Shown here: piece by piece, positions 2,805-27,093 of the stretch
Position numbering within the stretch: the first letter of the stretch is position 1
Layout of the letters: each line of letters starts with the position of its first letter
IMG/VR virus record: IMGVR_UViG_3300045135_000755
Location: 1-31,357 of that record
Length of the DNA stretch: 31,357 nucleotides
From: a virus
Direction: 5' to 3' (one strand)
Translations under genes and position numbers: made by a program
Notes under the pieces: generated by a model
What the model saw: the letters and a program-made list of their open reading frames with translations, nothing else
Told to the model about the DNA's origin: nothing
Databases searched by the model: none

Positions 2805-3518
2805 TTATGGAAGTCTTATCTGCATACCAGTAAATAATGGGTCAACATCTACTGTACGACCACCGAATGGGTTGTCGTCACCTGGTAAACTAAAACCAGT
2901 ATCACTAATCATCGTAGAAGTATCAATAACTTCTCTAAAAGACATTCTAGCAGATCCTTTTGATGTTCTTAAATTAGTTCTGCTGGGTTTTTTTGACTCC
3001 ATAGATTGCAATTTTCTTTGAACAGCCTCGCCTTCTCTATGAATTTGTCGGTGCTGTGTTTCTGAAACAGGCATAATATTTTCAGCTGTATCGCCAAGAG
3101 GAATTCCAGCCTTTTCAAACCGTTCAAAATAAGTAGCAGCCCGAGCAGCGGTCATATCTAAAACAGCCTTGCCAGATAGAAACAAAGGTACAATATGATG
3201 CCCTTGTAAACCGCGTGAAGCTGCTGATGCCATTGCCTGCCCAAAAGCAGCTAAATTAGTACCAGGCGGTGTGCTTGCTTGCGCTAACCTTTGTCTAGCA
3301 CCGGCGCCGCGATTAACTTTTCTACTAGATGATTTTTCAATTGAACCTGTAGGAAATTTTTTAGAACCGTACTGTCTAATAATACGTTCTTCACCATCTT
3401 CAGGTACAAATCTAGTAATACCTTGCTCTAACGCAGCAGCTTTTGTTGCAGGTAAACCTTGCAACCGCTCTGCTTCAGTAGGAGGTCGCAGTTGTCGTTT
3501 TTTACTTTTAATAGGCAT
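2805..3518 (-). CDS. Putative HNH/EndoVII-superfamily nuclease, HH-type
   Basis: This 237-aa protein starts with a basic tail and carries a His-rich core, GHHIVPLFLSGKA, at residues 106-118. TAENIMPVSETQHRQIH follows at 144-160. The HH...N...H-x3-H spacing (H107 H108, N147, H156, H160) resembles the AHH/GHH-type branch of the HNH/EndoVII nucleases, in which the first His pair and the later His residues form the metal site. That is a motif match, not a confirmed family assignment. Its ATG overlaps the TAA of the HNH gene upstream (TAATG). It lies between terS and terL, so a role in genome cutting or packaging, or a homing or toxin-like domain captured by the phage, is possible. Confidence 0.65.
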   Translation of the reverse strand: MPIKSKKRQLRPPTEAERLQGLPATKAAALEQGITRFVPEDGEERIIRQYGSKKFPTGSIEKSSSRKVNRGAGARQRLAQASTPPGTNLAAFGQAMASAASRGLQGHHIVPLFLSGKAVLDMTAARAATYFERFEKAGIPLGDTAENIMPVSETQHRQIHREGEAVQRKLQSMESKKPSRTNLRTSKGSARMSFREVIDTSTMISDTGFSLPGDDNPFGGRTVDVDPLFTGMQIRLP

Positions 3519-3847
3519 TAAGCAATATGCTCCAATAAAACTTTTTCACGGAGCCTATTGACTCCAAATTTATACCTCATCCATTCAAGGACGTTGGCAC
3601 TTCCTTTCTCCTGATTACAACGGGTGCAGGCACATACGACATTCGTTGCGACATCCTGCCCACCGCGAGACCTAGGATGAACATGATCGATAGATAACTG
3701 ACTAAGGTCATAAGTTTTTCCGCAATAAATACATGTGTTGTCAAAATGTTCCTTAATAGAGCGCCTCCACAGGCGCTTGGCTTCTGGTGAGGTCATAACT
3801 ATTAAGTTGTAGAGGTAATCGTCAGGAGTAGGAAGTAACGGGGTCAT
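3518..3847 (-). CDS. HNH endonuclease
   Basis: This 109-aa protein has a classic zinc-stabilised HNH fold. CIYCGK (C39, C42) is the first Cys pair, and DHVHPRSRGGQD at residues 54-65 holds the catalytic His. N69 lies in ATNVV, and CTRCNQEKG (C74, C77) is the second Cys pair with the final conserved N and K. Small HNH nucleases next to terminase genes often assist the terminase in DNA cleavage during packaging in other phages, which is the favoured role here; a homing nuclease is the alternative. Its start overlaps the upstream stop in ATGA, so the two are translationally coupled. Confidence 0.9.
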   Translation of the reverse strand: MTPLLPTPDDYLYNLIVMTSPEAKRLWRRSIKEHFDNTCIYCGKTYDLSQLSIDHVHPRSRGGQDVATNVVCACTRCNQEKGSANVLEWMRYKFGVNRLREKVLLEHIA

Positions 3848-6750: not shown

Positions 6751-9156
6751 TTAGCGTGCGCGGGCGGTTTTGAAGGGATGCTCAGCAAATGCGGCGTAGA
6801 TGTAAGAGGCGCCATTAGCGTTAGTGTCTCCATCAGTCCCTCGAAGCTTGAAACCATTTGAAAGAATATCTACTTTTTGAGTGTTACTTGCTTCTGCGTT
6901 GCTGGTGTTTGGCTCCAACGATAAATTGCTTAAATTGTCAACGTCTCTCGCAGTGTCGATGATAATCCAATCAGAAACGCGGGTAGTTGATTTAATTAGC
7001 AAGAACGAAGGTCTCATCCCGGTGTAGACGAAGGCTCCGTTGCTGCCACTTGTACCGGTGTACGAACCAAACGCGCTATAGCCTTCGACAGGTGCAAAGC
7101 AGTAGGCGATCATGTCGTCACCAGCTTGATAACTAGCGTTGCCGCCCGCACCGAGAGTAAAAACAGAATTGGTCGCAAGTGTGCTATTAAACTGCGCTTG
7201 GCTTGAATATGCAGCAGAGGTTGAATTAAGATTTATAGCTTCTCCTGAAGTAATATCTAGCGACTTGTGATACACAAGCCAATTTTGGCTTCTATCTCTG
7301 TTTTTAAAAATAGCAAAATTCATTGCAGCATTTAAGCCGTGCCCTACTGTCGCCCCAGCAACGTTGGTGCTTGTGTAACTAACAATCGAGAACCCAGCAG
7401 ACGCATTGGCGCGGACATTAGAAGTGATGCTGCCGTCAGTGTTGCTGACCGTTGACGTTCCAGCGTCCCATGCCCAAGCAACATGTGAATCACCCGAGGG
7501 ATAGTTGGTGACATTGGCTCCCACGTCATTGCCAAGCGTAAATCCGTTGGAATCAAATGAATTAAAAGTGCCAGTTCCGTAACCACTCCCCGAAGTCGTA
7601 ATTTCTGCATTAGTGCGATTAGAGCTAAGCAGCTTATTAGCTCCCCTGACAATATCAAATAATCCGTGGTGGTTTGCAGTTGCGCGGTTTTTAATCCATA
7701 CAAAATCAGGAGAAAAGTTGTAACCTGTTACAGCAAGTGTAGAGTTGTTTGAGGTATAAAGTTTTGCATCAAACGCCGTCGAACCATCGGCAATCGTTGG
7801 GTCCGGCAGATTCTGCGTGCAGAGTGACTTGAAGCCAGTTGGTGGCGTGTACGCAAATGGGCGTTGGCCGAAGTTAAAAATAGTGTCCCCGTTATAAGCG
7901 CCACTGCCTGATCTGCAATTTGCTGTCCACGCACCAGTGAGCCCTGTAACAACAGCGCTACCGCTGTTCATAGCAGAACCATTCTTGTAGAAATAAAGGT
8001 TGCCACCATCCATGTCCAGAGCGACACCAATTACGTCGCCTGACACAAAACCATCGACTGATGTTGTTGAACCGTTATGATAAAGCAGCCCGGAACCGGC
8101 GTTTCCATAAAGCGCATATTGCTGATCGTTTTCGCCAGGATAACTTGCAGCTTGTGGGCTGGTACTGCTTTCAATACCAGACATCGTATAGTCGGTGGCA
8201 GCCGTAAACTCCCAGTAAAATTTTCCACTGCTTGCATATAAAGTTCCAGTAGATCGACCAGAAACGCCGTTGCTTACTAAGTTGCCATTCGTTAAGGTTT
8301 GATCTTGATTCTTAAGCGGATTCAACGTGCAATAGTTGCCACCGTTATTACCAGACGCTGCTGTGTAATTCGTCGGCGTGTCGATTAGGCTGTCGTTGCC
8401 AGATCCTGATGCAACAGAAAGGTTATTGACCGTCCAGTCGTTACTTCCGGCAGCATCCGTTCCAAGTGCAGATGCGCTGCTGTTGTCGGAGAAGTCGAGG
8501 TGGAAGCCATTGGTGCCGTACGTTCCAGAATATGCCTTCGGCTGCCAAACACCGTTATCATCGTATTCACCAAAGTCAGTCGGCGCAAGTGCTTGACCGT
8601 CGATGAAGTGAACTTCTGCCAAGTAAGCATCTAATTCAACAGTTGAGTTGTAGAGTCGAATTCCAATGGAGTGGTTTGTAGTGCTGTTGATCGCATGACT
8701 GCCGTCTTGGGGTATATTCCCACCCGTATAGGATTGATCCACGCCGTTCACGTAGAGTTTTACTCGATCAGAAGCAGTGGCCTTAGTCGAATCAACAGAC
8801 CAAACAACGTGATACCAGGCACTTGTATCTCTAAATACAGCCGATGTAGCATTTATAATCTGTCCGCCACTGCCATCGTCATCTAGGTAAGACTGAAGTT
8901 GGTCGGAAGAATTAAAAGATAGCTGGGCAAATTCACTAAAACTTATTTCACACATGAACAACGCTTGCTGCACTCCTAGCTTGCTTCTTTTGACCCAACC
9001 ACTCCAAGTCCACGTCCTGCGATTTCCTTCAGACGACGGTGTCCTGGAAAGGTAGCTGGAATCGCCTGAGTTAAACCGCAGCGATCTGTCAATCTGGTAA
9101 CCAGCAGCCCCAGTTGCACCTGAGGCTCCGGCTAAAATATTATTAAATACTGCCAT
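6751..9156 (-). CDS. Tail adhesin with LamG-like and SPRY-like domains
   Basis: The 801-aa protein begins with a short N-terminal region. A concanavalin/LamG-like sandwich spans about residues 25-215 (RSLRFNSGDSSYLSRTPSSE, TWTWSGWVKRS, SAWYHVVWSVDS, VKLYVNGV). An SPRY-like module is visible near 305-435 (GKFYWEFTA, GDVIGVALDMDGGNLYFYKN). The last 350 residues are Ser/Thr/Gly/Asn-rich beta structure ending in KTARAR. Such modules bind sugars or proteins, so this is probably a receptor-binding or decoration protein of the tail. It starts 2 nt after the tail-fibre stop. Codon use looks richer in G and C than the flanking genes, which suggests a separate origin. Confidence 0.8.
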   Translation of the reverse strand: MAVFNNILAGASGATGAAGYQIDRSLRFNSGDSSYLSRTPSSEGNRRTWTWSGWVKRSKLGVQQALFMCEISFSEFAQLSFNSSDQLQSYLDDDGSGGQIINATSAVFRDTSAWYHVVWSVDSTKATASDRVKLYVNGVDQSYTGGNIPQDGSHAINSTTNHSIGIRLYNSTVELDAYLAEVHFIDGQALAPTDFGEYDDNGVWQPKAYSGTYGTNGFHLDFSDNSSASALGTDAAGSNDWTVNNLSVASGSGNDSLIDTPTNYTAASGNNGGNYCTLNPLKNQDQTLTNGNLVSNGVSGRSTGTLYASSGKFYWEFTAATDYTMSGIESSTSPQAASYPGENDQQYALYGNAGSGLLYHNGSTTSVDGFVSGDVIGVALDMDGGNLYFYKNGSAMNSGSAVVTGLTGAWTANCRSGSGAYNGDTIFNFGQRPFAYTPPTGFKSLCTQNLPDPTIADGSTAFDAKLYTSNNSTLAVTGYNFSPDFVWIKNRATANHHGLFDIVRGANKLLSSNRTNAEITTSGSGYGTGTFNSFDSNGFTLGNDVGANVTNYPSGDSHVAWAWDAGTSTVSNTDGSITSNVRANASAGFSIVSYTSTNVAGATVGHGLNAAMNFAIFKNRDRSQNWLVYHKSLDITSGEAINLNSTSAAYSSQAQFNSTLATNSVFTLGAGGNASYQAGDDMIAYCFAPVEGYSAFGSYTGTSGSNGAFVYTGMRPSFLLIKSTTRVSDWIIIDTARDVDNLSNLSLEPNTSNAEASNTQKVDILSNGFKLRGTDGDTNANGASYIYAAFAEHPFKTARAR

Positions 9157-9158
9157 AA

Positions 9159-12110
9159 TTAACTAAGGTTGAGAGTGGCAACAGCATGGATAGAACCAGT
9201 AGTACGGACGACGTAATCTACGCGATCAACGGATGAGGCAGCAGTTGTGAGTACCGGTGCAGTACCAGCAGCAAAGTCCCAAGAAGAACCCCAGGCAACT
9301 GTACGTGATCCGGTACCATCTTGCACAAGGAAGATAGAACCAGATTGACCAGCAGTCAGGTTGGTTGGGTTAGCAATGGTAGCGTTATGACCCAAGGTAC
9401 AAGTAAAGTTATTACTATCTGCAAAATCAGGTGTAATAGTAGTAGCGCTGGTTAGCGTAGTAATTTCACCTCGTTGTGCTGCAGTAAAGGTCTGAGCAGT
9501 GTCAGTTTTTGCAGTGTCAGCATCATATGCTTGAACATCTACACCAATCTCAAGGTTAACACCTTGTTTAAAGGTTGTTTCATTAGTGAAATTAAGACCG
9601 TCAAGATAAGCAAGACCAGCGTCATAACCTTGAACTGTAGATCCAATGTCATTATCTACAACAACATTAGAGCCTCCATTCTGAAGTGTACCTGTAAAGT
9701 TAGCAGTAGTATCGGAATAGGCAGCGTAACCAACTGTATCTACATAATTTTTAGTTGCAGCATCTTGTGCAGAAGTAGGGTCACCAAGATTAACAATTTT
9801 ATTAGTCAATGCATCTAGTTGACCACCAAGTTCAGGCGTTGTGTCAGTTACAACATCAAAGGCGTAGGAACCTGCGCTGAAGTTAATAAAACCAGTACGT
9901 TGGTCTACTTCAAAGAAGTCACCAATCTTAAATTTACCGTTGTGATCAGTAATAGCAGTCCATACTTTACCGTCGTTACTTTCAACAATTTGTTTAGTGT
10001 CGTCAGGTACACCGCCATTTTCCGGCAGTGCAGAGTAATCTGTACCGCTACCTACGTATTCCATAGTATGACCACTGGAAGCGATCATAGAACGAAGAAA
10101 GAAAGATACAGCAGCATCATCACTAACTGCACCGTTAAGACCTAGGTTTTCACTACGCTTGCTGGAATTAGGACGACTAATTGTAACAGTCCAGCCATTA
10201 CCACCTTCAGTGTCGGTACGTGAAGTAGCAGAAAGAACTGGGTAAGTTACACTATTAACAGTTACTAACATGTTACTAGCAGGTCTTTCCGTATCACCAA
10301 ACCATCCAGAACCTGCAGTAGGTTCGTTAATATTAAAGGTAATGTCACCACTGCTTGCAGCACCATCCACATTAGATGTAAAAATAGCGGACGTAGATTT
10401 ACCATCAGCAACCAGTGCTTCATCACCAAAGTCAGTGGTAGATGCAGCTAGGTTAGCTTGACCACCATTTAAAGTTTTAATGTGGTACTTGTTAAAGAAT
10501 GCGTAACTACTAGTTGCTTGGCAATAACCATTGTTAGTGACAAGAATACCAGGACCATTCAGACCAACGTGGGTGTAGCTATCTGCCACCATTGAACGCA
10601 ACGGTGATGCAGAATTAACAACAGAACCATCAACCAACATGCCACCACCAGTCGGTGCGGAATCAGTATCACCAGCCAAACCACCAGCAGGTGTGTTTGC
10701 ATTCAAGTTGCTGTTGTCAATTTCACTATCAGAAAAGTTGGTACAGTTTTGGATGTACGGTGATTTAGTAATAGTTGCGCCGCTATAGAACGCAAAGTTC
10801 CAACCTTGGGCAGTTGGCAAAGCAGCATCAACAGTGTTACCAGTACCTGAACCAGCCTTCATACCAGTCAACGTCAGGTTCTGAATAAACGAACCACTGT
10901 TTAATTCAAACAATGCGTGGTTACCATTACTTTGATCACCCTGTGTTGCAACAGTTGGATGTACAATACAGCTACGCAGTGCTTGTCCAATAATAGAAAC
11001 GTTTTTCTTTTGGATTTGAATAGGCGCAGCTTCTTGATACACACCAGCCGCTACGATTACTACACTACCATCACCGTAGGTAGCATCAGCGTTGATTTGA
11101 TTAATGGCAGCTTTAATAGTAGCTTTAGGGCGGCTAATACGGTGACCGTCATTACTATCATTGCCTGCGGTAGCGTCAACGTAAACAACTTTAGGTTGGT
11201 TAGTAAATGTACCACCAGATGTAATTGCAATCCAGTTACTACCATCCCAAACGGACAATGTTTTATCATCAGCAACATCTACCCAAACAGAACCTTTACC
11301 GATACCATTAGTTGTTGAGGGGGTTGCGTCTTGAACGTAGTTTTCAAACCGACGAATAGCAGCAAGAGAAGTAAAAACTTTATCGTCAGAACCGCCGTTA
11401 TCGTAATCAGCTTCTTGATCAGCTAGTTTAATTTGATCGGCATCTTTGATCTTATCAAAGTCAACACTATTGTCACTAAGACCAACTGTAATTTGACCGG
11501 AACCAGGTGTATCGTCTTGGACGTTAATACCATCAGCACCAATAATATCTACAGTCAGAGCAGAGTCAATTTTAGAATCAATGCGTGCATCGATTGCTTG
11601 AGTTGTTGCTACCTGATCATCATCCGAATCCCACGTTTCCGTAGAATAAACAGTTTCGTCAAATTTATTCCAATAATAGTTTTTGAGGTAAGTGTCTACA
11701 TCATCAGGAATGCCAACACAATTTGCCTCTTGAATAGCATAACGAAGTTGTTCAAAGTTTTTATTTAGGTCATCAGACCGGATAGCTGATCCAGGGTTAA
11801 ACAGAGCCCGGATGTCGTCAACTTTAGTAATCCGTCGGATTTTAACGTTGTCAACAGTAGGTTCACCAGGATCTGTAGGAGTAGCAGGGGATGGTGGAGC
11901 AGTCCCCGTAAACTCTACAATCGTTGGGTTGGCATCAGTAATCTGCCAAGGGTAGGTGGCATCTGTCGTAAGTTTTTCGTCGTATTCTTTTGTAGTTACG
12001 TTCCAGAAATAAACGTGTATTTCAGATTTAAATATGTACGGGAAATCAAAAGAGAATTGTGTCTTTGTCCCGTTTCCAGCTTGAATTGTTTGTACGTCAG
12101 TGCACGCCAT
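9159..12110 (-). CDS. Tail fibre (T7 gp17-like N-terminus, beta-helix middle)
   Basis: The first about 130 residues match the tail-attachment domain of T7 gp17 in style (MACTDVQTIQAGNGTKTQFS, FDFPYIFKSEIHVYFWN, then DDLNKNFEQLRYAIQEAN). A helical stalk and repeats up to about residue 300 lead into a pectin-lyase-like right-handed beta-helix. Its entry reads YVDATAGNDSNDG near 310, followed by PKATIKAAINQIN and VVIVAAGVYQE. The last third contains short coiled repeats (DAATKNYVDTVGY) and a C-terminal beta domain. At 983 aa it is much longer than T7 gp17 (553 aa), which fits a host-recognition fibre with an inserted enzymatic or binding domain. Confidence 0.92.
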   Translation of the reverse strand: MACTDVQTIQAGNGTKTQFSFDFPYIFKSEIHVYFWNVTTKEYDEKLTTDATYPWQITDANPTIVEFTGTAPPSPATPTDPGEPTVDNVKIRRITKVDDIRALFNPGSAIRSDDLNKNFEQLRYAIQEANCVGIPDDVDTYLKNYYWNKFDETVYSTETWDSDDDQVATTQAIDARIDSKIDSALTVDIIGADGINVQDDTPGSGQITVGLSDNSVDFDKIKDADQIKLADQEADYDNGGSDDKVFTSLAAIRRFENYVQDATPSTTNGIGKGSVWVDVADDKTLSVWDGSNWIAITSGGTFTNQPKVVYVDATAGNDSNDGHRISRPKATIKAAINQINADATYGDGSVVIVAAGVYQEAAPIQIQKKNVSIIGQALRSCIVHPTVATQGDQSNGNHALFELNSGSFIQNLTLTGMKAGSGTGNTVDAALPTAQGWNFAFYSGATITKSPYIQNCTNFSDSEIDNSNLNANTPAGGLAGDTDSAPTGGGMLVDGSVVNSASPLRSMVADSYTHVGLNGPGILVTNNGYCQATSSYAFFNKYHIKTLNGGQANLAASTTDFGDEALVADGKSTSAIFTSNVDGAASSGDITFNINEPTAGSGWFGDTERPASNMLVTVNSVTYPVLSATSRTDTEGGNGWTVTISRPNSSKRSENLGLNGAVSDDAAVSFFLRSMIASSGHTMEYVGSGTDYSALPENGGVPDDTKQIVESNDGKVWTAITDHNGKFKIGDFFEVDQRTGFINFSAGSYAFDVVTDTTPELGGQLDALTNKIVNLGDPTSAQDAATKNYVDTVGYAAYSDTTANFTGTLQNGGSNVVVDNDIGSTVQGYDAGLAYLDGLNFTNETTFKQGVNLEIGVDVQAYDADTAKTDTAQTFTAAQRGEITTLTSATTITPDFADSNNFTCTLGHNATIANPTNLTAGQSGSIFLVQDGTGSRTVAWGSSWDFAAGTAPVLTTAASSVDRVDYVVRTTGSIHAVATLNLS

Positions 12111-12115
12111 GTTGT

Positions 12116-15100
12116 TTAATAACGATTAGTTGGAATAGGCATAATGCCCTGTTCAGCACGTCGATCGTTTATCCTCTTAAGCATGATACGTTGATCAATC
12201 GCATTACGCATTTCAGGTTCTAGGTTTCTATATGCTAGTTCTTCTGCGGTTTTCTGTGCTTCACGTAGCATCATGTGGATCTGATCATACTTACCAATAG
12301 GTACTTCATCAGAACCAATAAATTGACGACGCATTGTTTTCAGTTCGTTAATGGTATTACGAGCTTCAGCTGTCTTGGCAATACGATTGATCTGTTTTCT
12401 AAAGAAACCCATACGACCCATTTCAGCATTTAATGCATTACGTTCATCTGCCATCAGATCAACGCCTTGACGTTTCTTAAATGCAGAAGATACATCATAT
12501 TCAATATCATACAAGAACTTCTCCTCCTTACTCATAGCTGGATGGATTTTTAAAGGAGAATAAGCGTTGTAGATACGTTGTAACATACTGTACTTATTAG
12601 GTGCTTCACCACTGACAGGACTAATAACAGTAGGTAGACGGTTTGTCTGATCAATTAGACCAATCATTTGGTTACGATTTACCAGCTGTTCAATGATGTT
12701 ATTGTTAAAGTCTTTAAGACCACCATCAAGAATCCTACCAAACTCATTACGAGCACCAGCAAGAGGAGCCAGTGAGTTAATTTGACCTGCAACCCAACGG
12801 TTAGCAGCGTATTCATTACCGCTTGCAACTTCCACCAAAGGACGTAATGCGGACAAGCCTGCATTGTCAGTCAATGCTGCACCTAAAATAAAGCTAAGCT
12901 TTTCAAATGCATTTTCAGTAGCAGCTTCACCAAGCATGTCGAAGTTATCAGCCACGTTAGCAACAGCTGCAACCCAGTTACTTAGACCAGGACCAAGCAA
13001 TTCATTGTACTCAAAACGTCGTCCATCAGGACCAACAACTGAACGTGGTTTGAAGTTGCTGTTCTTCATCCTTGCTGCGTTAAGCTGACGGTCAACAGAA
13101 CCATCACCAGTCACACTAAACAAACCATCACCAAACAGTTTGTCTTTAATAACACTACCAATCACCATAGAAGTAACAAAGCTGCCAATAGCCTTACGAC
13201 CAAGTGTACGGTTTTTAAGGTCAACAATAGTATTGATCTTTGCGATCTCATCCATATTGTCAAGCCTATGACCACGCGCTGCAAGGATACGATCCATAGA
13301 CTCAGGGTTTTCCATAAACGTCTGTACTGACGTATAAGCCAGTTCATTGACATCTTTTTGGAAAGATTTAAGAGGTGCAGGGATGTAGTCATCAGCAACA
13401 CGGACCATATTCATCATCGTTGTCGGGAACGTGAGGAATGGTGTCAGTCCGGGTAGCGTCTGGAGAAGACCATCAACTTGCTTACTAAGACCGGTGTCTA
13501 GGTTAAGTGCAATATCAGCGTTGCTGTATTTAACAGCCTTATCTTTAATAATACCACTAGCATCAAACATGCTGTTGTATTCAGCAGTAGCTAGTTGTTT
13601 AATTCTGTCAGGTGTAGCTGCTTCACCGAGACGTTCTAGCTCATCCATTGCACGGAACCGCGCCTGAGCGTTAGCCAAGGTAGCGCCAGTCCAAGCATCA
13701 AAACCAGTGAATAGGTTAGGTACCAGACGGAATACAGGATCAGCAGCCATAGCTTGCATATCCTCGTACATCTTGACTAGGAACTTAAACCCGTGCCTAC
13801 CACGTTGAGACTCTTGTTCAGCAATATAACGGTATTGATTAATTTTATCTTCCTGTTTAATAACAAGATCTAAACGAGATTGACCTTTAACAGCATTAGG
13901 GTTTTGTGATGCTTTCATAAACATCTTACCTGCATAAGGCAATGCTTTCTTTTGTGTGTCGAAGATTGCACTGTAAGCCATCCAACCGCGCTGTAGTGCC
14001 TTCATATCTTTATTGAGCATTGCACCACCAAAGTATGCTACAGGTTCTGCTATAAGACCACTAAGGTTACCATAGAGTGCTCTAGCAGCAGTACCTGGTG
14101 CAGACAAGAGGCTATTGAAATAATTAGAACGTACAGCCTGTGCAATGATGTTAGGTTGCTCAGGATTCGGATCGTAGATAGGACGGAAGTTTGTAAAGCT
14201 ATTAAGAATGTCTTCATTCATCTTAGCGATAGTATTAATATGACCATCGCTTAGCTCATACAATTCCAAGAACGAATCTAGAATGTCAGGACGATTCTCC
14301 TGCAACCACATCCAGTTTTCAGTAAACTTTTGACTATCAGTTTGGATTTGACGAAGTGCTATAGGATAGGACTCTTTAATTTCGTTAGCGATCTGTTCAG
14401 GAGTTTTAAACAAGTTTGCAGCACGCTCACCAAGAGCAGCAAGACCTTTCTTCTGAACAGTAAAGTAACGAGTAGAGCCGACCAATTGTTGCAGAAAGTT
14501 AATCTTATCTAGGATCTGTTCTTGAGCATTTTCAATAGAAACAGAACCACGGTTAAGACGCATACCTTCAGCAAGGTCAGCGATTTGACCAGCCATAGAC
14601 GTTGCAGTATATGCCTGAGCACGAGCAATATCCATACCTTGATATTCTTTTACCAAATTATTGATAGAACTAAGTGCATCTGTATAACCACTTGAAGTCA
14701 ATACTTCAACACCTGCTTCGTTCTTAACGATTTGGGGATCAAGCATACGACGCATGTCGTCAATAGTTGCAGACGGATCAAACAATTCTAAAACAAGATT
14801 ATCGGCAGCAGCTGCTACTTCATCTGAAGTTATGACAAAATCATCAGCAACCATGCCAACCCGATCAGCTTCTCTAAGTTGTTGTGCTAAACCAATTGTA
14901 ATCTCTTCAACACCACCAGGTGTTTCTATACCGTATTTAATTGCAGGTCCACTAATGAAGTTACTAAGACGACCGTAGACAGTATCTTTGTTGCTTTGGA
15001 TACGTGCAGCATCAATGCTAGCACCAACAATACCAAAGTCATCTACTGTACGCATTCCGGTTTCACGCCAGTCATATAGGTCATGAACACCTTTAAGGGG

Positions 15101-16129
15101 AATATTAGGGTCTGTTGTTTTGCTTAGGTTGTAATAACCAAGCTCGTCTAATGCCTCTTCCTGTTTAGCTACATATTCCATCATAGCTTCTTCAGGTACC
15201 TCACTAACAGGTTTAGGTTTGTTAGCAGCTAGGTACTTGACAGCTTGCTCAGATTCACCAACAATAACAGGAGGCTTACGAAAAACAGTCTGAACTTCAG
15301 ATACAGAAGCGTTGAATTTACTAGCAAATCCAACCATAGGTAACATAAATCCTAGGGCTAGATCTTCGTTAATGTTCTTTTGTCTTTTAAGATCTGGACT
15401 ATCACCGTCAAGAGTAGCAAAACTATCAGGAATATAATCCCATTGAGGTGGCAGTGCTTTCTTAACCATACCAGACAGGTTGTCACCTGTCTCATACTCT
15501 GAACTGATAGAACCAACAGCAACTGATGCACCTGCTTCAATACCACGATTACCAACAAATTTCATAAAAGAGGTATTACCAAGTTGGTTAATTTTAGCTG
15601 TTGGACCAAATTTGGTAACAGCTGCAGTCTGTGCTTTTGATGCTAACCCGCTAGCTGCCCCTTGAGTCAGCAAAGTAGGTAAAACAACTGAAGAAATTGT
15701 ACGGGTAGCTTGTGCTACTTCATCTTCATATTTTGTAGCTTTAGGGATTTGCAAACCAGTTTTTTGCAACAGGAAGTTAATACCATCAATAGTAGTGTCA
15801 ATAATACCCTGCCCTGGTGCACTAAGACGTTCTTTTACCTGCTGACCAGTTTCACCAATAGGTTGACCAAAATAGGTAAACCCTGAGAAGTCAAAAAGTT
15901 TAGTAGGTGGTTTTTCTGGTTTTTCACCCGTAGGTTGAGGCTCAGTTTCAACTGGTTCTGGTTGCACTGCCGTAGCAGCTTGTGCGACTTGTTGCTCAAG
16001 CGCCGTTTGAGGGGCTTCAAACCTCTGCTGGATCTCTTCGATCTGCTCATTAGAGAGTTGGGCCTGGCGCTCTTGCTCATCCAGCACAAAATCCTCACCT
16101 AAGTTGGAGTATTCTGAGGGATCTTTCAT
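12116..16129 (-). CDS. Internal core protein (T7 gp16-like)
   Basis: The 1337-aa length and its place before the tail fibre match T7 gp16 (1318 aa), the largest ejected core protein. The N-terminal 95 residues are Gln/Glu/Pro-rich and disordered. The rest is mainly helical, with hydrophobic or glycine-rich patches near residues 150-210 and 260-285. Unlike T7 gp16, I see no lytic-transglycosylase motif at the N-terminus. It ends in a basic helical region (MRRQFIG, IMLKRINDRRAEQG). In T7 the core proteins are ejected and form a channel for DNA across the cell envelope. Confidence 0.85.
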   Translation of the reverse strand: MKDPSEYSNLGEDFVLDEQERQAQLSNEQIEEIQQRFEAPQTALEQQVAQAATAVQPEPVETEPQPTGEKPEKPPTKLFDFSGFTYFGQPIGETGQQVKERLSAPGQGIIDTTIDGINFLLQKTGLQIPKATKYEDEVAQATRTISSVVLPTLLTQGAASGLASKAQTAAVTKFGPTAKINQLGNTSFMKFVGNRGIEAGASVAVGSISSEYETGDNLSGMVKKALPPQWDYIPDSFATLDGDSPDLKRQKNINEDLALGFMLPMVGFASKFNASVSEVQTVFRKPPVIVGESEQAVKYLAANKPKPVSEVPEEAMMEYVAKQEEALDELGYYNLSKTTDPNIPLKGVHDLYDWRETGMRTVDDFGIVGASIDAARIQSNKDTVYGRLSNFISGPAIKYGIETPGGVEEITIGLAQQLREADRVGMVADDFVITSDEVAAAADNLVLELFDPSATIDDMRRMLDPQIVKNEAGVEVLTSSGYTDALSSINNLVKEYQGMDIARAQAYTATSMAGQIADLAEGMRLNRGSVSIENAQEQILDKINFLQQLVGSTRYFTVQKKGLAALGERAANLFKTPEQIANEIKESYPIALRQIQTDSQKFTENWMWLQENRPDILDSFLELYELSDGHINTIAKMNEDILNSFTNFRPIYDPNPEQPNIIAQAVRSNYFNSLLSAPGTAARALYGNLSGLIAEPVAYFGGAMLNKDMKALQRGWMAYSAIFDTQKKALPYAGKMFMKASQNPNAVKGQSRLDLVIKQEDKINQYRYIAEQESQRGRHGFKFLVKMYEDMQAMAADPVFRLVPNLFTGFDAWTGATLANAQARFRAMDELERLGEAATPDRIKQLATAEYNSMFDASGIIKDKAVKYSNADIALNLDTGLSKQVDGLLQTLPGLTPFLTFPTTMMNMVRVADDYIPAPLKSFQKDVNELAYTSVQTFMENPESMDRILAARGHRLDNMDEIAKINTIVDLKNRTLGRKAIGSFVTSMVIGSVIKDKLFGDGLFSVTGDGSVDRQLNAARMKNSNFKPRSVVGPDGRRFEYNELLGPGLSNWVAAVANVADNFDMLGEAATENAFEKLSFILGAALTDNAGLSALRPLVEVASGNEYAANRWVAGQINSLAPLAGARNEFGRILDGGLKDFNNNIIEQLVNRNQMIGLIDQTNRLPTVISPVSGEAPNKYSMLQRIYNAYSPLKIHPAMSKEEKFLYDIEYDVSSAFKKRQGVDLMADERNALNAEMGRMGFFRKQINRIAKTAEARNTINELKTMRRQFIGSDEVPIGKYDQIHMMLREAQKTAEELAYRNLEPEMRNAIDQRIMLKRINDRRAEQGIMPIPTNRY

Positions 16130-16146: not shown

Positions 16147-18768
16147 TTATTGCAATTGATTAGCAATTCTTTCTCTTAAAGATTCGTAATTGCTATAAGG
16201 TGTCATAGAACCACTACCGCGGGCTGCAGGTGCCAGGAAATCAATTGATGAAATTGTACCATCTGCACTTTGTACACTACCAGTACCACCCTGTTTGCCA
16301 ATAATCTCACCTAAAGAGACATATTGACCAATTGATTGAGAAGGTTTATTTGGAAAATGGCTATACAAAACATCTACAGGTTCATTAGTAATTGGATCAA
16401 TCGATTCAATAACTAAATAATTACCATAACCAGACCCATCGGCGTTTACTTGGTAACCGATATCTTTTACAACACCAGGCAATACGGCTGGGAAGTTTTT
16501 ATCTTCAAAGAAAATATCAATGCCAGGTTGTCCTCTGTCAAAAGTAACTGAAGAAACTTGAGGAGCAAATTTTCTCAATGGTTGAAAAGGACTACCGCCA
16601 GGCATACTAAAACGTATTGGAAGTTGACCAGTAAACATAGCACCACCACGTCTGATCTGAGAATTTACATCAGATAAAAACAACTTCCGCATCGCAGGTG
16701 GTGCGCTATCAATCAGATCAGTTACAGGTGATGGAGTAAGTAGTGGTTTGTTAGCCCCAGTTTTAGCGTTATTTGCTTGACGTTGTGAGTTATAAACCTC
16801 ACTTGGTTTAAGATTAAACTGTTCAGCAAATTTAATAATACCAGGAGGATATTGTATAGCACCTGCAACAGCAGATGTGTAGGTAGCATCCATTTGTATA
16901 GAGGTAGCTAGAGAAAACGGTTTACTTACTACAGCTTCACCAGACTCACGAATCTGCTTATCAATAGAGGTCATCATCTCCGCCACTTCTCGATCAGAAG
17001 ATGCGATGTTAGGAAACACCGGACGGTTGAGAGCGCCTTGAGCGGGGTCCATATAAAAAGGACTTTTGTCATCCCCATCCTGACCAGCGTCAACCATTTT
17101 GTTGACTTCTTCTAGTGCTTTAAGTGGATCATTAGTTATTTTAAGCTGTTTAAGGTATTCACTTTCAAGACGAGCTTGCACCAAAAATGTTAAAGGACTG
17201 CCCTGATTTTCGTTAGGATCTATTTCAGTTAATTTTCTAGCAGTAGCTTTAAAACCCTTCTTAATCCCTAACGCTTCAGGTCCATACTTATTTAACTCCT
17301 GCTGTTCATAAGCAGCACGGGCTTTCTTTTGCAATGAAAGGTCTTGGATGCTATTAACAAAGGTAAGGTCAAGGTTGCCAAACCTAGTTTTTTCATCAAT
17401 TGTGTTTTCTACGATGTCCTTCTTTTTCTTAATAGCTTCACGTTCAATCGCTGCAATGACAGGAGGTACGGTCATACCTTTACCATGATAACGCTGCTTA
17501 ACAAGCACAGCAGCTTGCTCAGGGTTTTCGTCGTATGCTTGTTGAATTGAATCAATGTTAGCATCAACCCATGCGTTATCAGCTGCTTTCTTTAAAGCTT
17601 CGTCAGCGTCTACCTGTTTAACATATGCTTGCAGGCGTTTTTTAATACCAGCTTCCCATCGACCCGGCCATTGTTCGGCATAGCTTTTCCCATTATCCAG
17701 CAGATCAGGTGCTCCAGCAACAGCTTCTGAAATGTAAGGATTAGCAATTACATTTTCCTGATACCAATCATGAGCAGCTGCTACACCTTCTGAAATTTTA
17801 ATACGAGCAAAAGCGCCTGTAACACCTTCGACTGTACCAGTACCTGCAATATCAAAAGCTTGCTGCCTAATAAGTTCTTTTGCCTGTTTGATACCTTCTT
17901 TACTTGCAGATTCACGTTGAGCTTTATCGCTTTCATCAATTGCCTTATTAGCTTCAGAAAGGTACATAGGATCCGTAAATCCCATGTAAGCAGACACATC
18001 TTTACGAGTTTGCTGTTGCAACTGAGCCAGTAACTCAGGATTACTAAGAGCCTCGACACCACTAAATTTTTCACCGTTAGCACCAATAAAAGTTTTATCA
18101 GCGCTTTGGAGTCGTTTGTTTAGAACCTGGTTATAAAGTTGAACAGCAACTTTGTTATCATTTGCTTGTGCTGCATAACCTTTAAAACCGTGGTTACTAA
18201 TATAACCTTTATAGGTTTCGTATGGGTCTTCATTATTTAAGACACCATTAGCAGCTACATCAGCGTCTAAAGCTATACCTCCTGTAAGCAGCAACTGCTT
18301 TGCGTCAGTGTATTGTTCAAATGCTTCAGTAGAAATAGACTGAGCTGCAGAAGACAAACCAATAGCGGTTTGGTCTTTAATCATTTTAGCAGTACGTTCA
18401 GCAGCAACTTTAGCTGCTGTTTTACTAAACCCTACGATACTATCAATAATACTTTCTGTAGCAGCTGCGTTTGTTTGAGCTTGTTTTTGTGCCCCTTGAA
18501 TATCAACAAGCTTTTGCATACTCTCATTTTTGAGATTTTGCAATGCGATTTCTCGGTTTTGTTTAATAGCTCGCTCGGTGTAAGCAGCATTCTCTCCCAT
18601 TGCTTGGAGGTTTTTGTCGGCTTGTTCTTTTTCAGCGCGACGACGACGCTCCATGCCTTGGATAATCCGGTTGCTTTCTTCACGCATCCGGGAGATACCC
18701 TCTGTACTTAGTTGTTGTGCTCTAAAACCCCTGCGTTGTGCAGAGGGTCTGTATTGGATACGTGCCAT
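16147..18768 (-). CDS. Internal core protein (gp15-like) with degenerate M23 domain
   Basis: This 873-aa protein fills the gp15 position (T7 gp15, 747 aa). Residues 1-130 are coiled-coil and Ala/Gln-rich (MARIQYRPSAQRRGFRAQQL). The central part is helical. The last about 130 residues show a peptidase M23 fold: QPGIDIFFEDKNFPAVLPG, GYGNYLVIES, VLYSHFPNKP and GEIIGKQGGTG. The catalytic layout is altered. The usual first His is Q747, the Asp is kept (D751), the YSH His is H804, and the usual HLHF is SIDF (841-844). The fold may therefore bind peptidoglycan without cutting it. The gene start ATG follows an AT-only leader. Confidence 0.85.
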   Translation of the reverse strand: MARIQYRPSAQRRGFRAQQLSTEGISRMREESNRIIQGMERRRRAEKEQADKNLQAMGENAAYTERAIKQNREIALQNLKNESMQKLVDIQGAQKQAQTNAAATESIIDSIVGFSKTAAKVAAERTAKMIKDQTAIGLSSAAQSISTEAFEQYTDAKQLLLTGGIALDADVAANGVLNNEDPYETYKGYISNHGFKGYAAQANDNKVAVQLYNQVLNKRLQSADKTFIGANGEKFSGVEALSNPELLAQLQQQTRKDVSAYMGFTDPMYLSEANKAIDESDKAQRESASKEGIKQAKELIRQQAFDIAGTGTVEGVTGAFARIKISEGVAAAHDWYQENVIANPYISEAVAGAPDLLDNGKSYAEQWPGRWEAGIKKRLQAYVKQVDADEALKKAADNAWVDANIDSIQQAYDENPEQAAVLVKQRYHGKGMTVPPVIAAIEREAIKKKKDIVENTIDEKTRFGNLDLTFVNSIQDLSLQKKARAAYEQQELNKYGPEALGIKKGFKATARKLTEIDPNENQGSPLTFLVQARLESEYLKQLKITNDPLKALEEVNKMVDAGQDGDDKSPFYMDPAQGALNRPVFPNIASSDREVAEMMTSIDKQIRESGEAVVSKPFSLATSIQMDATYTSAVAGAIQYPPGIIKFAEQFNLKPSEVYNSQRQANNAKTGANKPLLTPSPVTDLIDSAPPAMRKLFLSDVNSQIRRGGAMFTGQLPIRFSMPGGSPFQPLRKFAPQVSSVTFDRGQPGIDIFFEDKNFPAVLPGVVKDIGYQVNADGSGYGNYLVIESIDPITNEPVDVLYSHFPNKPSQSIGQYVSLGEIIGKQGGTGSVQSADGTISSIDFLAPAARGSGSMTPYSNYESLRERIANQLQ

Positions 18769-18790: not shown

Positions 18791-20053
18791 TTAATCGCCT
18801 GTTTTAGATTGATTATTATTATTGGTATTATTATTGGGATTCCAATTAATCGTAGATAAGGCACTAGCTCCAGCACCAATACCAGAGATAAGAGGTGCAA
18901 ATGTACTTACTTGTTGAGGCGGTGGTGTGTACCCAGGCTTAGCTTCCATGGGTTCGATAAAAGTACGCTCTGGTGGCGGTTCAGGGCGAGGATCATACGA
19001 CAAACGTTCGGGAAATAGCATCATACCAGCTCTAGTGTTAAGGTCAGCAATTTGACGATCAAGGCTGATCTGCTTTACATCGCGGAGAGTTTGATTGAGA
19101 GTGCTCTTCATGTTCTCTCTCATAACCTCAAGATTAAACTGAGCATCAGTTTCAGCATTTTTAATGGCAGCATCAATACGCTGTAGATTAAGACCAACAC
19201 CTGCCTCCTGCAAACTAGAATCGGCATTAAGTTCTGCCATCTGAACGGCAGCTTGTTTATACCTACCAGACAATTCAGATTCAAGTACCATCAAACCACG
19301 ATGTAATCCAGCCATGTTAGATTGCAAACTTTTGGCAGTAGATCTACCGGCCTGACCTGCAGCTTGAATACCGCCTTCAGAAATTAAATTTTTAACCATT
19401 TCAGCTTCTTTTGCTAAGGCACCTTGAGTCATCAATTGGTCAATAGTATTCTGAAAACCTACATTACCAAATGCTTGCCTAGAACGGATACCTTGTATTT
19501 TCTGAAACTGCTCTTGTCGATTGATATTTTGCTCAACATAGGTTTGTTTAAGCGCATCTTTCGATTGTCTGTGTTGAAATTGCTGTTGAATAAAAGCTTC
19601 TTGAATAGCATCTTGCTCTGCTTGAATACCTTGAACAGCCGCCTGGGCATTTAATCCAAGCTGTGCATTACCAATAGCTGTACTTTTTTGCCATTGTTTG
19701 AGTTGATTAAGATATTGAAAATCTTGAATCTCAGCACCACGTTCCCAATTTTTTATACTCTCTTTTATACTATAATCACGCATTGCTTTATAGTCTTTTA
19801 CTTGAGCATCAAAAACCGCTTTATTATATTTGTTTGTATCCTCAGCAATTTCTTCTGCCGCCTCTTGCTGTTCTTTATATGCTTTTTCAGCAGCAGCGTT
19901 TTGTGAAGACGCTTGCTGGGATCCCATGATACCTTTAAAAATGTTAAAACCAGCATTGGCTATTGCAAACCCTGTTAATGGCTCAAGCGCCATCTCCAGA
20001 CCAGACACAAACATCTGTTCGTCTAGGAGGTTATTACCTTTTGGATTGAACAT
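18791..20053 (-). CDS. Internal core protein (gp14-like)
   Basis: This 420-aa protein follows tail tube B and precedes the gp15-like gene, in the place of T7 gp14 (196 aa) but twice as long. Residues 30-50 are moderately hydrophobic (GFAIANAGFNIFKGIMGSQQ). A long Ala/Gln/Glu coiled-coil follows (AAAEKAYKEQQEAAEEIAED), and the C-terminus is Pro- and Asn-rich (PPPERTFIEP, NWNPNNNTNNNN). The start overlaps the upstream stop in TAATG and has a perfect AGGAGG site. In T7 the gp14 protein goes into the outer membrane during ejection. Confidence 0.85.
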   Translation of the reverse strand: MFNPKGNNLLDEQMFVSGLEMALEPLTGFAIANAGFNIFKGIMGSQQASSQNAAAEKAYKEQQEAAEEIAEDTNKYNKAVFDAQVKDYKAMRDYSIKESIKNWERGAEIQDFQYLNQLKQWQKSTAIGNAQLGLNAQAAVQGIQAEQDAIQEAFIQQQFQHRQSKDALKQTYVEQNINRQEQFQKIQGIRSRQAFGNVGFQNTIDQLMTQGALAKEAEMVKNLISEGGIQAAGQAGRSTAKSLQSNMAGLHRGLMVLESELSGRYKQAAVQMAELNADSSLQEAGVGLNLQRIDAAIKNAETDAQFNLEVMRENMKSTLNQTLRDVKQISLDRQIADLNTRAGMMLFPERLSYDPRPEPPPERTFIEPMEAKPGYTPPPQQVSTFAPLISGIGAGASALSTINWNPNNNTNNNNQSKTGD

Positions 20054-22587
20054 TAAGCCCTCCTATAGAATCGTGGAGAATAAATACCCTCCCACATCAT
20101 TGACACCAACGATACAGGGTATGGAAAATCACTTGTCACTTTTAATTCAAAATTAGTATTACGTTGATGAATTGGAACAATAAATTGTCTCTCATCTTTT
20201 ACAGGATTACTGTCAGCACTATACCGATCACCATCAGCTGTAGAGTCTACATTCTTCCATTCATTAGATCCATCGGCTTTTACTTTAAACCGGATAGCAC
20301 CAGTTCTACCAACAGAGAATTTAACTCGTGAAACAGTTAGAGAAGCAGTAAAGTCAGTTACAGTAGGTTGTGGTCGATAGTAAAACTTAGGTAGTGTTAC
20401 TTCAAAGTCATAACCATAACCAACGACAATACCATCAGCATAAGCAGTAAAGTTACCTTTGACTTCAAAGTATCGATAGTTTGTACTGGTTTCAGTACGT
20501 TCTTCTGCAGTAGCATAATAGCCAGCATCTGCATCAATTACAGCAGCTGTACCTACGTCTGCCTGAGGGACACTCAACAGCATAACAGCTTGCTTTTCAT
20601 CAATAGGTGTATATGGAACATAGATCTTGGTAAGATCATTGGTCGAGTCATACACCACCGCATCGACACCTACAGCAGGGCTGACGGGGCGTGTAGCCAT
20701 GTCTAGGCACGGATTACCCGTCATGCTAGTTGTCGTCGCTACAACGTCTCCTGTAGGGATTTGGTCTAGTACCACCTTACCAATGGTGTATTCATCCTCA
20801 TGTTGAGATACAATGATAACATCATCATCAATAATATCTACAGCTTGGATAGTACCAGGTAGTTGCCATTTAGTCCATGCTTGGAAAAGATCTTGTTCAC
20901 CATTATTATAGAACCTGTAAAGGTAGATATAAGATGAGGATCTATCTGTCAACATAAGAACAGAGTTTTGTGCACTGACAGCAAGACTATCAATAGTATC
21001 AGGAATCCACTCTAGAACTGTTTTACTGATGTCAACCACAAGTGGGCTTTGTTCAATCTCCCGCAGCTGTAAAGTAAATAACTTAGCGTAACCAGGAACT
21101 GTATTGACGAAAGCTGTTGTAGTACCGACATCCACAGGAGGAATGCTGGCATCCATCTCATAATTAGAGATAGCCCTGATAACTGTTGTTTTAGGTGTCA
21201 GTGTAGCAGCACTGGTAGAAAGCACTTGGAACTGCTGCCTAGCACTAAACAACAGAAGACCTTGTGGAGAAGGTAAGACATCAGTCAAGACAACAGGTCT
21301 AACACTAGCTACGTTCAGATCAACAGGATCAGCATCGGTCTGTGCTAAAGCAGATTTAACAAAGAAGTTAAACGAATCATTAGCCCTACCAAAGAAGATG
21401 TTATCCTCTGAAAGAGCACCAAACCTATTGTTGTAGAAAAATGTTGCTGTAATAGGATAACCAATGAACGAAGGGTTAGGACTGGTGTTATCGTCACCAA
21501 CCTGTCTTGCTGTCCAAGGGATTTGTTTAAAGGTAAATGTAGTAGCACCTGTGTTCTCTAGCTGATAAGGCATGGTAGCCGCATCGAGTCCAGGGGACAC
21601 ATCTCTAGCTACTGATTCTTTCCAAAACCCTTTGCCACGTGTACCGTTATATGCTTCGTACTCCAGATAATAATCATCATCTGCAGAACTGGTATTAGTA
21701 ACTTTTACATGGTGACCATTGAAAGATTCTGCAGGTAAATCACCAGAGTCTTTTACACTATCTTGAAATGCCTCAAGAGACAAGTTAGCAATACCACCTT
21801 TTCCTTCAATAGTAAATGCAAGAGGTGTACCAGTAGGTACTGTGTAATCTGTAACTACAGCATTTGTACCAGATGTACGTTTAATTACAAGACTATTTGC
21901 GTATGCCTCTATCGACCACACACCACTAAAGTCAGCATTGCTAGCAGACTGTTGTGCTGTAATTGTAGATACAATGTTGTCAACTAGATGGTGAGATGTG
22001 TTTACATTACCACTATCATAAACAAGGAAATCATCATATGTTGTAGTGCTCTGTGCTTCAACACTGATTTTGACACCTTGAATAGTAACAGAGTATTCGT
22101 CTGCTGTCAAGGATACTAATTTAATTGTACCTACAGAATTAGCAACATACGTACCATCTGCTTGCATTGCAGTGGTAACTGTTTTGTTTGTGATAACAGT
22201 AACATCCTGCACACTACGAAAGTGGTAGTCTGATTGCTTAGTACCAGTTAGGTAAGAAGCACCTTGGTTTGTTACTGTACAAAAGGTACCATCAGCTTTA
22301 GTCCATACATAAATGTTAGTACCTTTAATAGCACCAATGTAAGACCCTGCATCATCACGGTCAATAAAGAACCATGCAGCATCAGCTAGTTCTGCCTTTG
22401 TAAATGCATCACCGTTTGCTTTCTTAAGTACGTTAACATGCTCCATACCAGGTCTTTTAAGGAGACCATAGGTAGGATCAGGGTACCCATTAACGCACTC
22501 ACTAACCTGATTAATTAATTTTTTGTCATCATTCTGGCGGGATACACCACCAAGAAAATTAGGAGTTGTTTGAGTTACTGCTGGCAT
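20053..22587 (-). CDS. Tail tube protein B (T7 gp12-like nozzle)
   Basis: The 844-aa size and place after tail tube A match T7 gp12 (794 aa), the nozzle of the short tail. The N-terminus MPAVTQTTPNFLGGVSRQND and 'NQVSECVNGYPDPTYGLLKR' (residues 26-45) are the typical gp12 opening. The remainder is beta-rich, and YSPRFYRRA closes the protein. Its start overlaps the tail tube A stop. The ATG leader (CTACAACGCTA) has no Shine-Dalgarno site, so coupled translation from the preceding gene is likely. Confidence 0.93.
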   Translation of the reverse strand: MPAVTQTTPNFLGGVSRQNDDKKLINQVSECVNGYPDPTYGLLKRPGMEHVNVLKKANGDAFTKAELADAAWFFIDRDDAGSYIGAIKGTNIYVWTKADGTFCTVTNQGASYLTGTKQSDYHFRSVQDVTVITNKTVTTAMQADGTYVANSVGTIKLVSLTADEYSVTIQGVKISVEAQSTTTYDDFLVYDSGNVNTSHHLVDNIVSTITAQQSASNADFSGVWSIEAYANSLVIKRTSGTNAVVTDYTVPTGTPLAFTIEGKGGIANLSLEAFQDSVKDSGDLPAESFNGHHVKVTNTSSADDDYYLEYEAYNGTRGKGFWKESVARDVSPGLDAATMPYQLENTGATTFTFKQIPWTARQVGDDNTSPNPSFIGYPITATFFYNNRFGALSEDNIFFGRANDSFNFFVKSALAQTDADPVDLNVASVRPVVLTDVLPSPQGLLLFSARQQFQVLSTSAATLTPKTTVIRAISNYEMDASIPPVDVGTTTAFVNTVPGYAKLFTLQLREIEQSPLVVDISKTVLEWIPDTIDSLAVSAQNSVLMLTDRSSSYIYLYRFYNNGEQDLFQAWTKWQLPGTIQAVDIIDDDVIIVSQHEDEYTIGKVVLDQIPTGDVVATTTSMTGNPCLDMATRPVSPAVGVDAVVYDSTNDLTKIYVPYTPIDEKQAVMLLSVPQADVGTAAVIDADAGYYATAEERTETSTNYRYFEVKGNFTAYADGIVVGYGYDFEVTLPKFYYRPQPTVTDFTASLTVSRVKFSVGRTGAIRFKVKADGSNEWKNVDSTADGDRYSADSNPVKDERQFIVPIHQRNTNFELKVTSDFPYPVSLVSMMWEGIYSPRFYRRA
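20059..20064 (-). promoter_or_regulatory. Perfect Shine-Dalgarno before gp14-like gene
   Basis: The minus strand reads AGGAGGGCTTAATG, so AGGAGG is 5 nt from the ATG at 20053. This is one of the few clear Shine-Dalgarno sites of the structural block; most neighbours have AT-only leaders. Confidence 0.85.
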
Positions 22588-26305: not shown

Positions 26306-26644
26306 TTAAAACTTATACTTGGCGCCGACCTTAGTGCCGTAGCCATTCTCATCACCAGTAATGAATGAGACTTCACCGTAGACAGACAACGCATCGTTCA
26401 CGCTGTAAGAACCACCTGCTTTACCAGACAGTTCAATGTCACCGTCGGCACCGTCAGGAGCCAGCAGAGCAGGACCACCCTGCACATACCAGTTAGCACC
26501 TTCGTAACCAACGTGGACATCAGTAGCAGTGCCGGTGTAGTCAGATCCATAGAAACCAGAGTTGGCTTCGATGTTTGCGTAGGGACCAGCGATAGCGCCT
26601 TGAGCGCAGCCGAGGAGGAAACCGGCAGCAATAATAGATTTCAT
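26306..26644 (-). CDS. Small secreted beta-barrel-like protein
   Basis: This 112-aa protein has a signal peptide, MKSIIAAGFLLGCAQGAIAG, cleaved near residue 19. The mature part alternates polar and aromatic residues in beta-strand fashion (DYTGTATDVHVGYEGANWYV, DIELSGKAGGSYSVNDALSV). It ends with YGTKVGAKYKF, an aromatic C-terminal residue as in outer-membrane barrels. At about 93 residues it is too short for a full porin and may be a small barrel or periplasmic protein. It is coupled to the upstream lysozyme gene by an ATGA-type overlap. Function unknown. Confidence 0.75.
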   Translation of the reverse strand: MKSIIAAGFLLGCAQGAIAGPYANIEANSGFYGSDYTGTATDVHVGYEGANWYVQGGPALLAPDGADGDIELSGKAGGSYSVNDALSVYGEVSFITGDENGYGTKVGAKYKF

Positions 26645-27093
26645 TTTAATTTGTTTAGAAAAGTGTAAGAATAAGTTGTACGTTTACCGTGGACTCCCCA
26701 CCCTAACCAGTAATAGGCAGAGTTCATGTAGTAGTCTACGGTTTGATGATTAGTTTGAAATGCGTACAGGTCACGACGAAACCTCATCTCATCAATCATG
26801 TATTGTGTTTGACCTTTAAGAGATGATGGGTCACACTCATACTTTTTACAAAAAATGCCAAGACCATCGTAGCGATTCTTGCTAGTCCATTGGATTAGCC
26901 CGTAGCCACCACGAAGGCATTGGTCATAGGGCACAATAGCTCCACCTTCACATATGTTAGGAGTGAATTGCGACTCTTGCTGTATGTTACCCAGCAGCAC
27001 AGCCAGGGCAGTTTTGTCTGTTACTTCAGCAGAGTCCTGCAGTTGTTTCAATACATACTGTTGTGCGGGTGTGCAATCTGGGCATGTAATCAT
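26641..27093 (-). CDS. Tail-lysozyme-like muramidase
   Basis: This 150-aa protein matches the phage tail-lysozyme type. The catalytic-region pattern is GNIQQESQFTPN (likely catalytic Glu near residue 37), followed by GGYGLIQWTSKNRYDGL and a later YYWLGWGVHGKRTTYS. No signal peptide or membrane segment is seen, and it opens MITCPDCTPAQQYVLKQLQD. It could cut peptidoglycan as an endolysin in late infection, the likeliest role as no other lysin lies in the window, or act in the virion. Both ends overlap their neighbours. Confidence 0.85.
   Translation of the reverse strand: MITCPDCTPAQQYVLKQLQDSAEVTDKTALAVLLGNIQQESQFTPNICEGGAIVPYDQCLRGGYGLIQWTSKNRYDGLGIFCKKYECDPSSLKGQTQYMIDEMRFRRDLYAFQTNHQTVDYYMNSAYYWLGWGVHGKRTTYSYTFLNKLK

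Follow-up and report, generated by a model that had tools for sequence, protein, structure and literature searches.

A T7-like cyanopodovirus is represented by IMG/VR record IMGVR_UViG_3300045135_000755, of which all 31,357 nucleotides were analysed and are referred to here as the window. From the sequence alone, its internal core protein had been read as ending in an M23 peptidase fold that lacks zinc ligands. This raised the questions of whether the C-terminus has that fold, whether the incomplete site is a property of one phage or of a family, and what such a domain may do on an ejection protein.

Gene context and fold of the C-terminal module

The genes were arranged in the order nozzle (20053-22587; Phage_nozzle match, E=5.6e-171), 420-aa protein, 873-aa core protein, 1337-aa internal virion protein of phrog_6651, and T7-type tail fibre; the major capsid, psbA, and portal genes were upstream of this region. 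With the nozzle gene upstream and phrog_6651 downstream, the core protein was located between gp14-like and gp16-like genes, which in a T7-like cyanopodovirus is the place of gp15 (Table 1).

Table 1. Positions in the window of the core protein, its parts and site residues, and the adjoining internal virion protein
Feature	Position	Strand	Basis
873-aa gp15-position internal core (ejection) protein	16147..18768	-	ORF and gene order
Body, residues 22-713, almost all-helical	16630..18705	-	AF2 full-length model
Linker, residues 714-728, pLDDT < 50	16585..16629	-	AF2 full-length model
Zinc-less M23/LytM-fold module, residues 738-873 (~135 aa)	16150..16557	-	Pfam, AF2, structure comparison, hhalign
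Q747, at the place of zinc-ligand His 1 (Glu in cyanobacterial relatives)	16528..16530	-	Alignment
D751, zinc-ligand Asp, kept	16516..16518	-	Alignment
H804, catalytic His of YxH, kept; sole His of the window's domain	16357..16359	-	Alignment
I839, where HxH has its first (catalytic) His	16252..16254	-	Bridging alignment
S841, at the place of the second (zinc-ligand) HxH His	16246..16248	-	Bridging alignment
D843, at the acidic residue after HxHF; no zinc-ligand position	16240..16242	-	Bridging alignment
1337-aa gp16-position internal virion protein adjoining the core protein	12116..16129	-	phrog_6651, E=1.1e-221

The AF2 full-length model, of which only local features were used since its pTM was low (0.38), showed helix to residue 713, a low-confidence linker, and then a beta module. 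A mainly alpha-helical body is also expected of a T7 gp15-like protein, T7 gp15 being compared by description only. The body (residues 22-713) had no Pfam match and no recognised enzyme domain, and the gp16-position protein had no significant Pfam match and no recognised peptidoglycan-hydrolase domain. Searches of the 31-kb window, which is a genome fragment, for SLT, glucosaminidase, DPBB, and Amidase_2 gave no match.

The C-terminus of the core protein has an M23/LytM fold. Pfam PF01551 (M23) matched the whole protein at E=3e-4, below the curated cut-off, and the isolated domain at E=1.5e-5; it also matched each of the ten sequences in the first alignment and every one of the 36 full-length homologues. 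Comparison by hhalign with 24 canonical M23 domains of phages and cyanobacteria gave 99.3% (E=2.9e-20). The AF2 model of the domain (mean pLDDT 87, pTM 0.85) matched lysostaphin (VIA Z 13.2), LytM (12.6), SpoIIQ, EnvC, and DipM (each ~11), and the LytM domain of PrgK (8s0u; 8.3), Z differences within 1 being treated as ties. Structure prediction and HMM comparison, two of the checks proposed along with the sequence-only reading, both gave the M23/LytM fold that it had recognised.

Several other genes in the window were noted. A 150-aa phrog_512 protein near psbA (26641-27093) had a weak endolysin-family match (E=1.4e-5). Of two tail proteins, one carried SPRY and DUF7483 (6751-9156) and the other a T7-fibre N-terminus with, after it, a pectinesterase-like stretch that fell below the Pfam cut-off (9159-12110); these domain matches suggest a sugar-binding or sugar-cutting fibre. 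A small HNH endonuclease was encoded at 3518-3847, between structural and terminase genes.

State and conservation of the zinc and catalytic site

In canonical M23/LytM enzymes, HxxxD binds zinc through its His and Asp, and HxH through its second His; catalysis uses the first HxH His together with the YxH histidine. In the module, zinc ligand 1 was replaced by Gln, the second catalytic His by Ile, and zinc ligand 3 by Ser. Instead of the HxGxD motif of active enzymes, all sequences had QPGxD (once QSGxD); at HxH there was I839-x-S841, with no conserved His after H804, and the YxH histidine was retained as the invariant H804. The window's domain has no His besides H804, and no other His column is conserved in the family; a His-based zinc site is therefore absent, whatever the alignment. 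The module is thus a LytM fold without a complete zinc site, as in degenerate LytM domains.

The position of the HxH motif depended on relatives bridging the phage module and canonical M23 domains. Relatives with EPGLD, YAHLD, and STTGPHVSVDFF, and with the site pattern EPGLD...H...TTGPHVSVDFF, came from a profile search covering 390 cyanobacterial genomes. Profile comparison identified this EPGLD/HVSVDF family (L280-L284) as the same domain (E 1e-16 to 1e-20; hhalign, 99.56%). Its zinc ligands were replaced (Glu, Ser) and both catalytic histidines kept; zinc ligands were therefore lost in both groups, and the relatives differed from the phage module in having Glu at position 747 and in keeping the catalytic His of HxH. 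The relatives represent an intermediate state, which suggests a possible order of losses. When they were included, three MAFFT strategies agreed: H-x-H aligned with I839-x-S841, and the Glu after it with D843. hhalign of the phage and canonical profiles alone left this region unsettled, and the bridging sequences settled it. Without them, a local alignment put S841 and D843 on HxH and a global alignment did not; with untrimmed tails the region was misaligned and neither version was placed. A serine-type triad of S841, H804, and D843, and D843 as a replacement zinc ligand, were both dropped because D843 is not at an HxH position.

Conservation was assessed in 73 distinct domain rows, including the window, from IMG/VR scans and two isolate phages. 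Q747, D751, H804, I839, S841, and D843 were invariant in all 73, which are related sequences and not independent events. The five polar positions (Q747, D751, H804, S841, D843) were also invariant in a set seeded outside the site motifs; these seeds were chosen to avoid selecting QPGxD but are still family features, so that His-bearing intermediates could be missed. A chromosomal copy of the module in a Cyanobiaceae contig kept the invariant site residues too. Such invariance could also arise from residues kept for folding or assembly. Among the 36 full-length homologues, with overall identities of 21-49% to the window protein, every invariant column lay within the module, and the window and L003 shared 85% identity in the domain as against 41% in the body. 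The whole protein found no match as an IMG/VR query, whereas the domain alone did. By sequence comparison, the module is the most conserved part of a fast-evolving core protein. Each of 19 records tested had one M23-like match and no second M23.

The sequence-only reading had correctly assigned Q747 to the first His and recognised D751 and H804 as retained. Its account of missing zinc ligands holds for both zinc histidines (Q747, S841) and extends from one phage to the whole phage family, but its assignment of HxH to S841-I-D843 was two residues off. Whether other phages keep the site histidines missing here, which it had left to be checked, depends on the phages: none of the 73-sequence zinc-less family does, whereas they are intact in phages of filamentous cyanobacteria (A-4L, Pf-WMP4). 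The term pseudo-enzyme fits the family-wide replacement of both zinc histidines and one catalytic His, from which we infer inactivity.

Spread over unrelated proteins and enzyme partners

The 39 module domains formed one blastp cluster with 53-86% identity to the window, while the N-terminal parts of the same 39 proteins fell into five groups without mutual blastp similarity at E 1e-5: a large gp15-like group, a four-member group, the S-CBP2/L147 large proteins, L051, and a 452-aa protein (L080). As judged by blastp, the module is mobile, occurring on at least five unrelated N-terminal backgrounds. In the same protein, the 36 full-length homologues carried SLT (10/36), glucosaminidase (2/36), or SLT_3 (1/36), and a DPBB (RlpA-type) lytic transglycosylase domain was a further partner. 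About two thirds of the family, including the window protein, had no recognisable glycan-cleaving domain in the same protein. The SLT-bearing L026 aligned with the SLT-free body of the window protein at 27%, indicating that SLT was gained or lost in that lineage. The gp15-position protein of Synechococcus phage S-SRP02 (L272:7844-10750) was annotated as an amidase, yet had no Pfam match at 0.01.

A first scan of bacterial genomes with short peptide patterns found no copy of the module; later profile searches gave the bridging family and one chromosomal copy. A phylum-wide search with four bridging sequences gave nothing at E <= 1e-12 in what is a genome sample and not a measure of abundance. 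The chromosomal copy was in a chromosome-size Cyanobiaceae contig (G284:C1, 2.48 Mb) with a run of ejection-type genes (L264:13959-18324, L264:18330 to L265:3282, L265:3285-6746). The run contained a homologue of the gp14-position protein of S-SRP02, a 1184-aa protein with the zinc-less module and DPBB (RlpA-type), a large protein with similarity to proteins of MedDCM and Prochlorococcus phages, and one more gene, of 1153 aa. The nearby ORFs that were checked included no recognisable capsid family; the run may represent a prophage, a remnant, or an element that makes use of an ejection module.

The bridging relatives were found in tape-measure-like proteins and in M23-like/trypsin-like proteins, and one tape-measure protein from a cyanobacterial genome had phage tail lysozyme alongside the M23-like domain. 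Two proteins (L282:721-2610, L283:757-2574) combined the zinc-less M23-like domain with a trypsin-like protease domain; judged by eye, they also had a probable membrane helix at the N-terminus and a lysozyme-like stretch. In L280 (G458:C1:768169-771522), a 5295-aa open frame, the module had as neighbours a cell-wall-hydrolase-like domain and a stretch that looked lysozyme-like by eye; this frame is perhaps a giant prophage tape measure.

Possible roles and comparison with known systems

The best reading, to which we give a probability of about 0.5, is that the module serves virion ejection proteins or muralytic proteins as a non-catalytic part that docks onto peptidoglycan. The M23/LytM domain, catalytically dead, would be retained for binding; riding on the gp15-position ejection protein, it would leave the head with that protein at infection and dock onto the stem peptide of peptidoglycan, or onto a partner enzyme bound there. 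Docking would place the periplasmic tunnel and any neighbouring glycan-cleaving domain on the host wall. Ejection with the core protein, peptidoglycan as the ligand, and the absence of catalysis are all elements that we infer. Gripping of cell-wall peptide during ejection, the role first suggested for this domain, is plausible, with indirect support from the pairing with glycan-cleaving domains in part of the family and from analogy with the LytM domain of PrgK. Docking is preferred because glycan-cleaving domains neighbour the module in wall-crossing proteins, an argument that does not cover all members since most have no recognisable domain of this kind in cis. Domains of the degenerate LytM kind take peptidoglycan or partner enzymes as ligands. 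The degenerate LytM domain of PrgK adjoins a muramidase and binds peptidoglycan without hydrolysis (PMC11323569). Together with CHAP it also reduces muramidase activity (PMC11323569), so that, by analogy, binding need not be the main role.

The module may instead be a regulator, which would inhibit or activate a glycan-cleaving domain in cis or, in the manner of EnvC, NlpD, or DipM, target an amidase of the host in trans. EnvC and NlpD are degenerate LytM factors that activate amidases (PMC9662197), EnvC, DipM, and SpoIIQ were among the structural matches, and SLT, glucosaminidase, or DPBB neighbours the module in part of the family; many members, however, have no recognisable enzyme in cis, and contact with a host amidase is hypothetical, which leaves regulation a tentative alternative. 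Its specific form, a virion-delivered LytM factor activating a host wall amidase at the entry site, is unlikely; if true, the phage would open the wall with the host's enzyme and could do without a hydrolase among its ejection proteins. As tentative as regulation in general is a structural reading, in which the fold would serve assembly, for example by contact between the gp15- and gp16-position proteins, with the portal, or with packaged DNA, and would have no peptidoglycan role. Core and ejection proteins do form large assemblies (PMC8954989), invariance also fits an interface, and in S-CBP2 and L147 the module is inside a different large protein. The same module nevertheless occurs on unrelated proteins, one of only 452 aa, and its relatives are in tape-measure and trypsin-like proteins of cyanobacterial genomes, for which shared assembly partners are unlikely.

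The five invariant polar positions in 73 sequences, and the several module-bearing phages without another hydrolase among the families searched, would also fit a domain that still cuts, with Q747, D751, S841, and H804 forming another metal or hydrolytic site. This is very unlikely: the second catalytic His position is Ile throughout the phage family, and we know of no M23 enzyme with a Q/D/S/H-type alternative site. The loss of three of the five site residues could be taken as decay of a functionless remnant, a view made extremely improbable by the module being the most conserved part of the protein, with invariant replacement residues and a spread across unrelated proteins.

Neither degenerate LytM domains nor M23 domains in phage core proteins are new. 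The claim of novelty for gp15-like core proteins does not apply to intact M23, known there from A-4L and Pf-WMP3/4, and stands for the zinc-less version, of which, as of a conserved zinc-less M23 family across cyanophage ejection proteins, no description was found in the literature searched (few subscription journals covered). The presence of a fixed, mobile zinc-less module on ejection proteins suggests selection in the ejection machine for recognising or controlling the wall, and not only for cutting it. The module bears on how short-tailed cyanobacterial phages cross peptidoglycan and, as a small ~135-aa domain with invariant residues, is directly testable. It also calls for caution in automatic annotation of module-bearing proteins as M23 peptidases.

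Synechococcus phages S-CBP4 (AGK86641) and S-CBP2 (AGK86746) had the same module, 57-60% identical to that of the window and unchanged in its site residues, both proteins being annotated as hypothetical; in S-CBP4, an SLT domain precedes the module, and in S-CBP2 the module is within a 1051-aa protein with an unrelated body. In T7, gp16 carries the wall-cutting domain, and domains of this kind are exchanged between gp15- and gp16-like proteins (PMC8954989). As in the window, A-4L and Pf-WMP4/Pf-WMP3 carry M23 on the internal protein that separates the tail tubular proteins from the next large virion protein; their HxGxD, H, and HxH are intact and the domain is internal, whereas that of the window is C-terminal. 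Intact M23 was found in the equivalent internal protein of A-4L, Pf-WMP4, and seven further phages of filamentous cyanobacteria, and the A-4L protein is within the solved pre-ejectosome (9k2v). EnvC, NlpD, and DipM share the degenerate LytM fold with the module and are cellular division regulators. PrgK differs as a Gram-positive conjugation protein (pCF10) with another domain order, and its likeness to the module, as far as shown, is structural (Z 8.3) and not one of close sequence relation; its LytM domain (8s0u), beside an SLT-type muramidase, is likewise a LytM fold without zinc motifs in a DNA-delivery machine.
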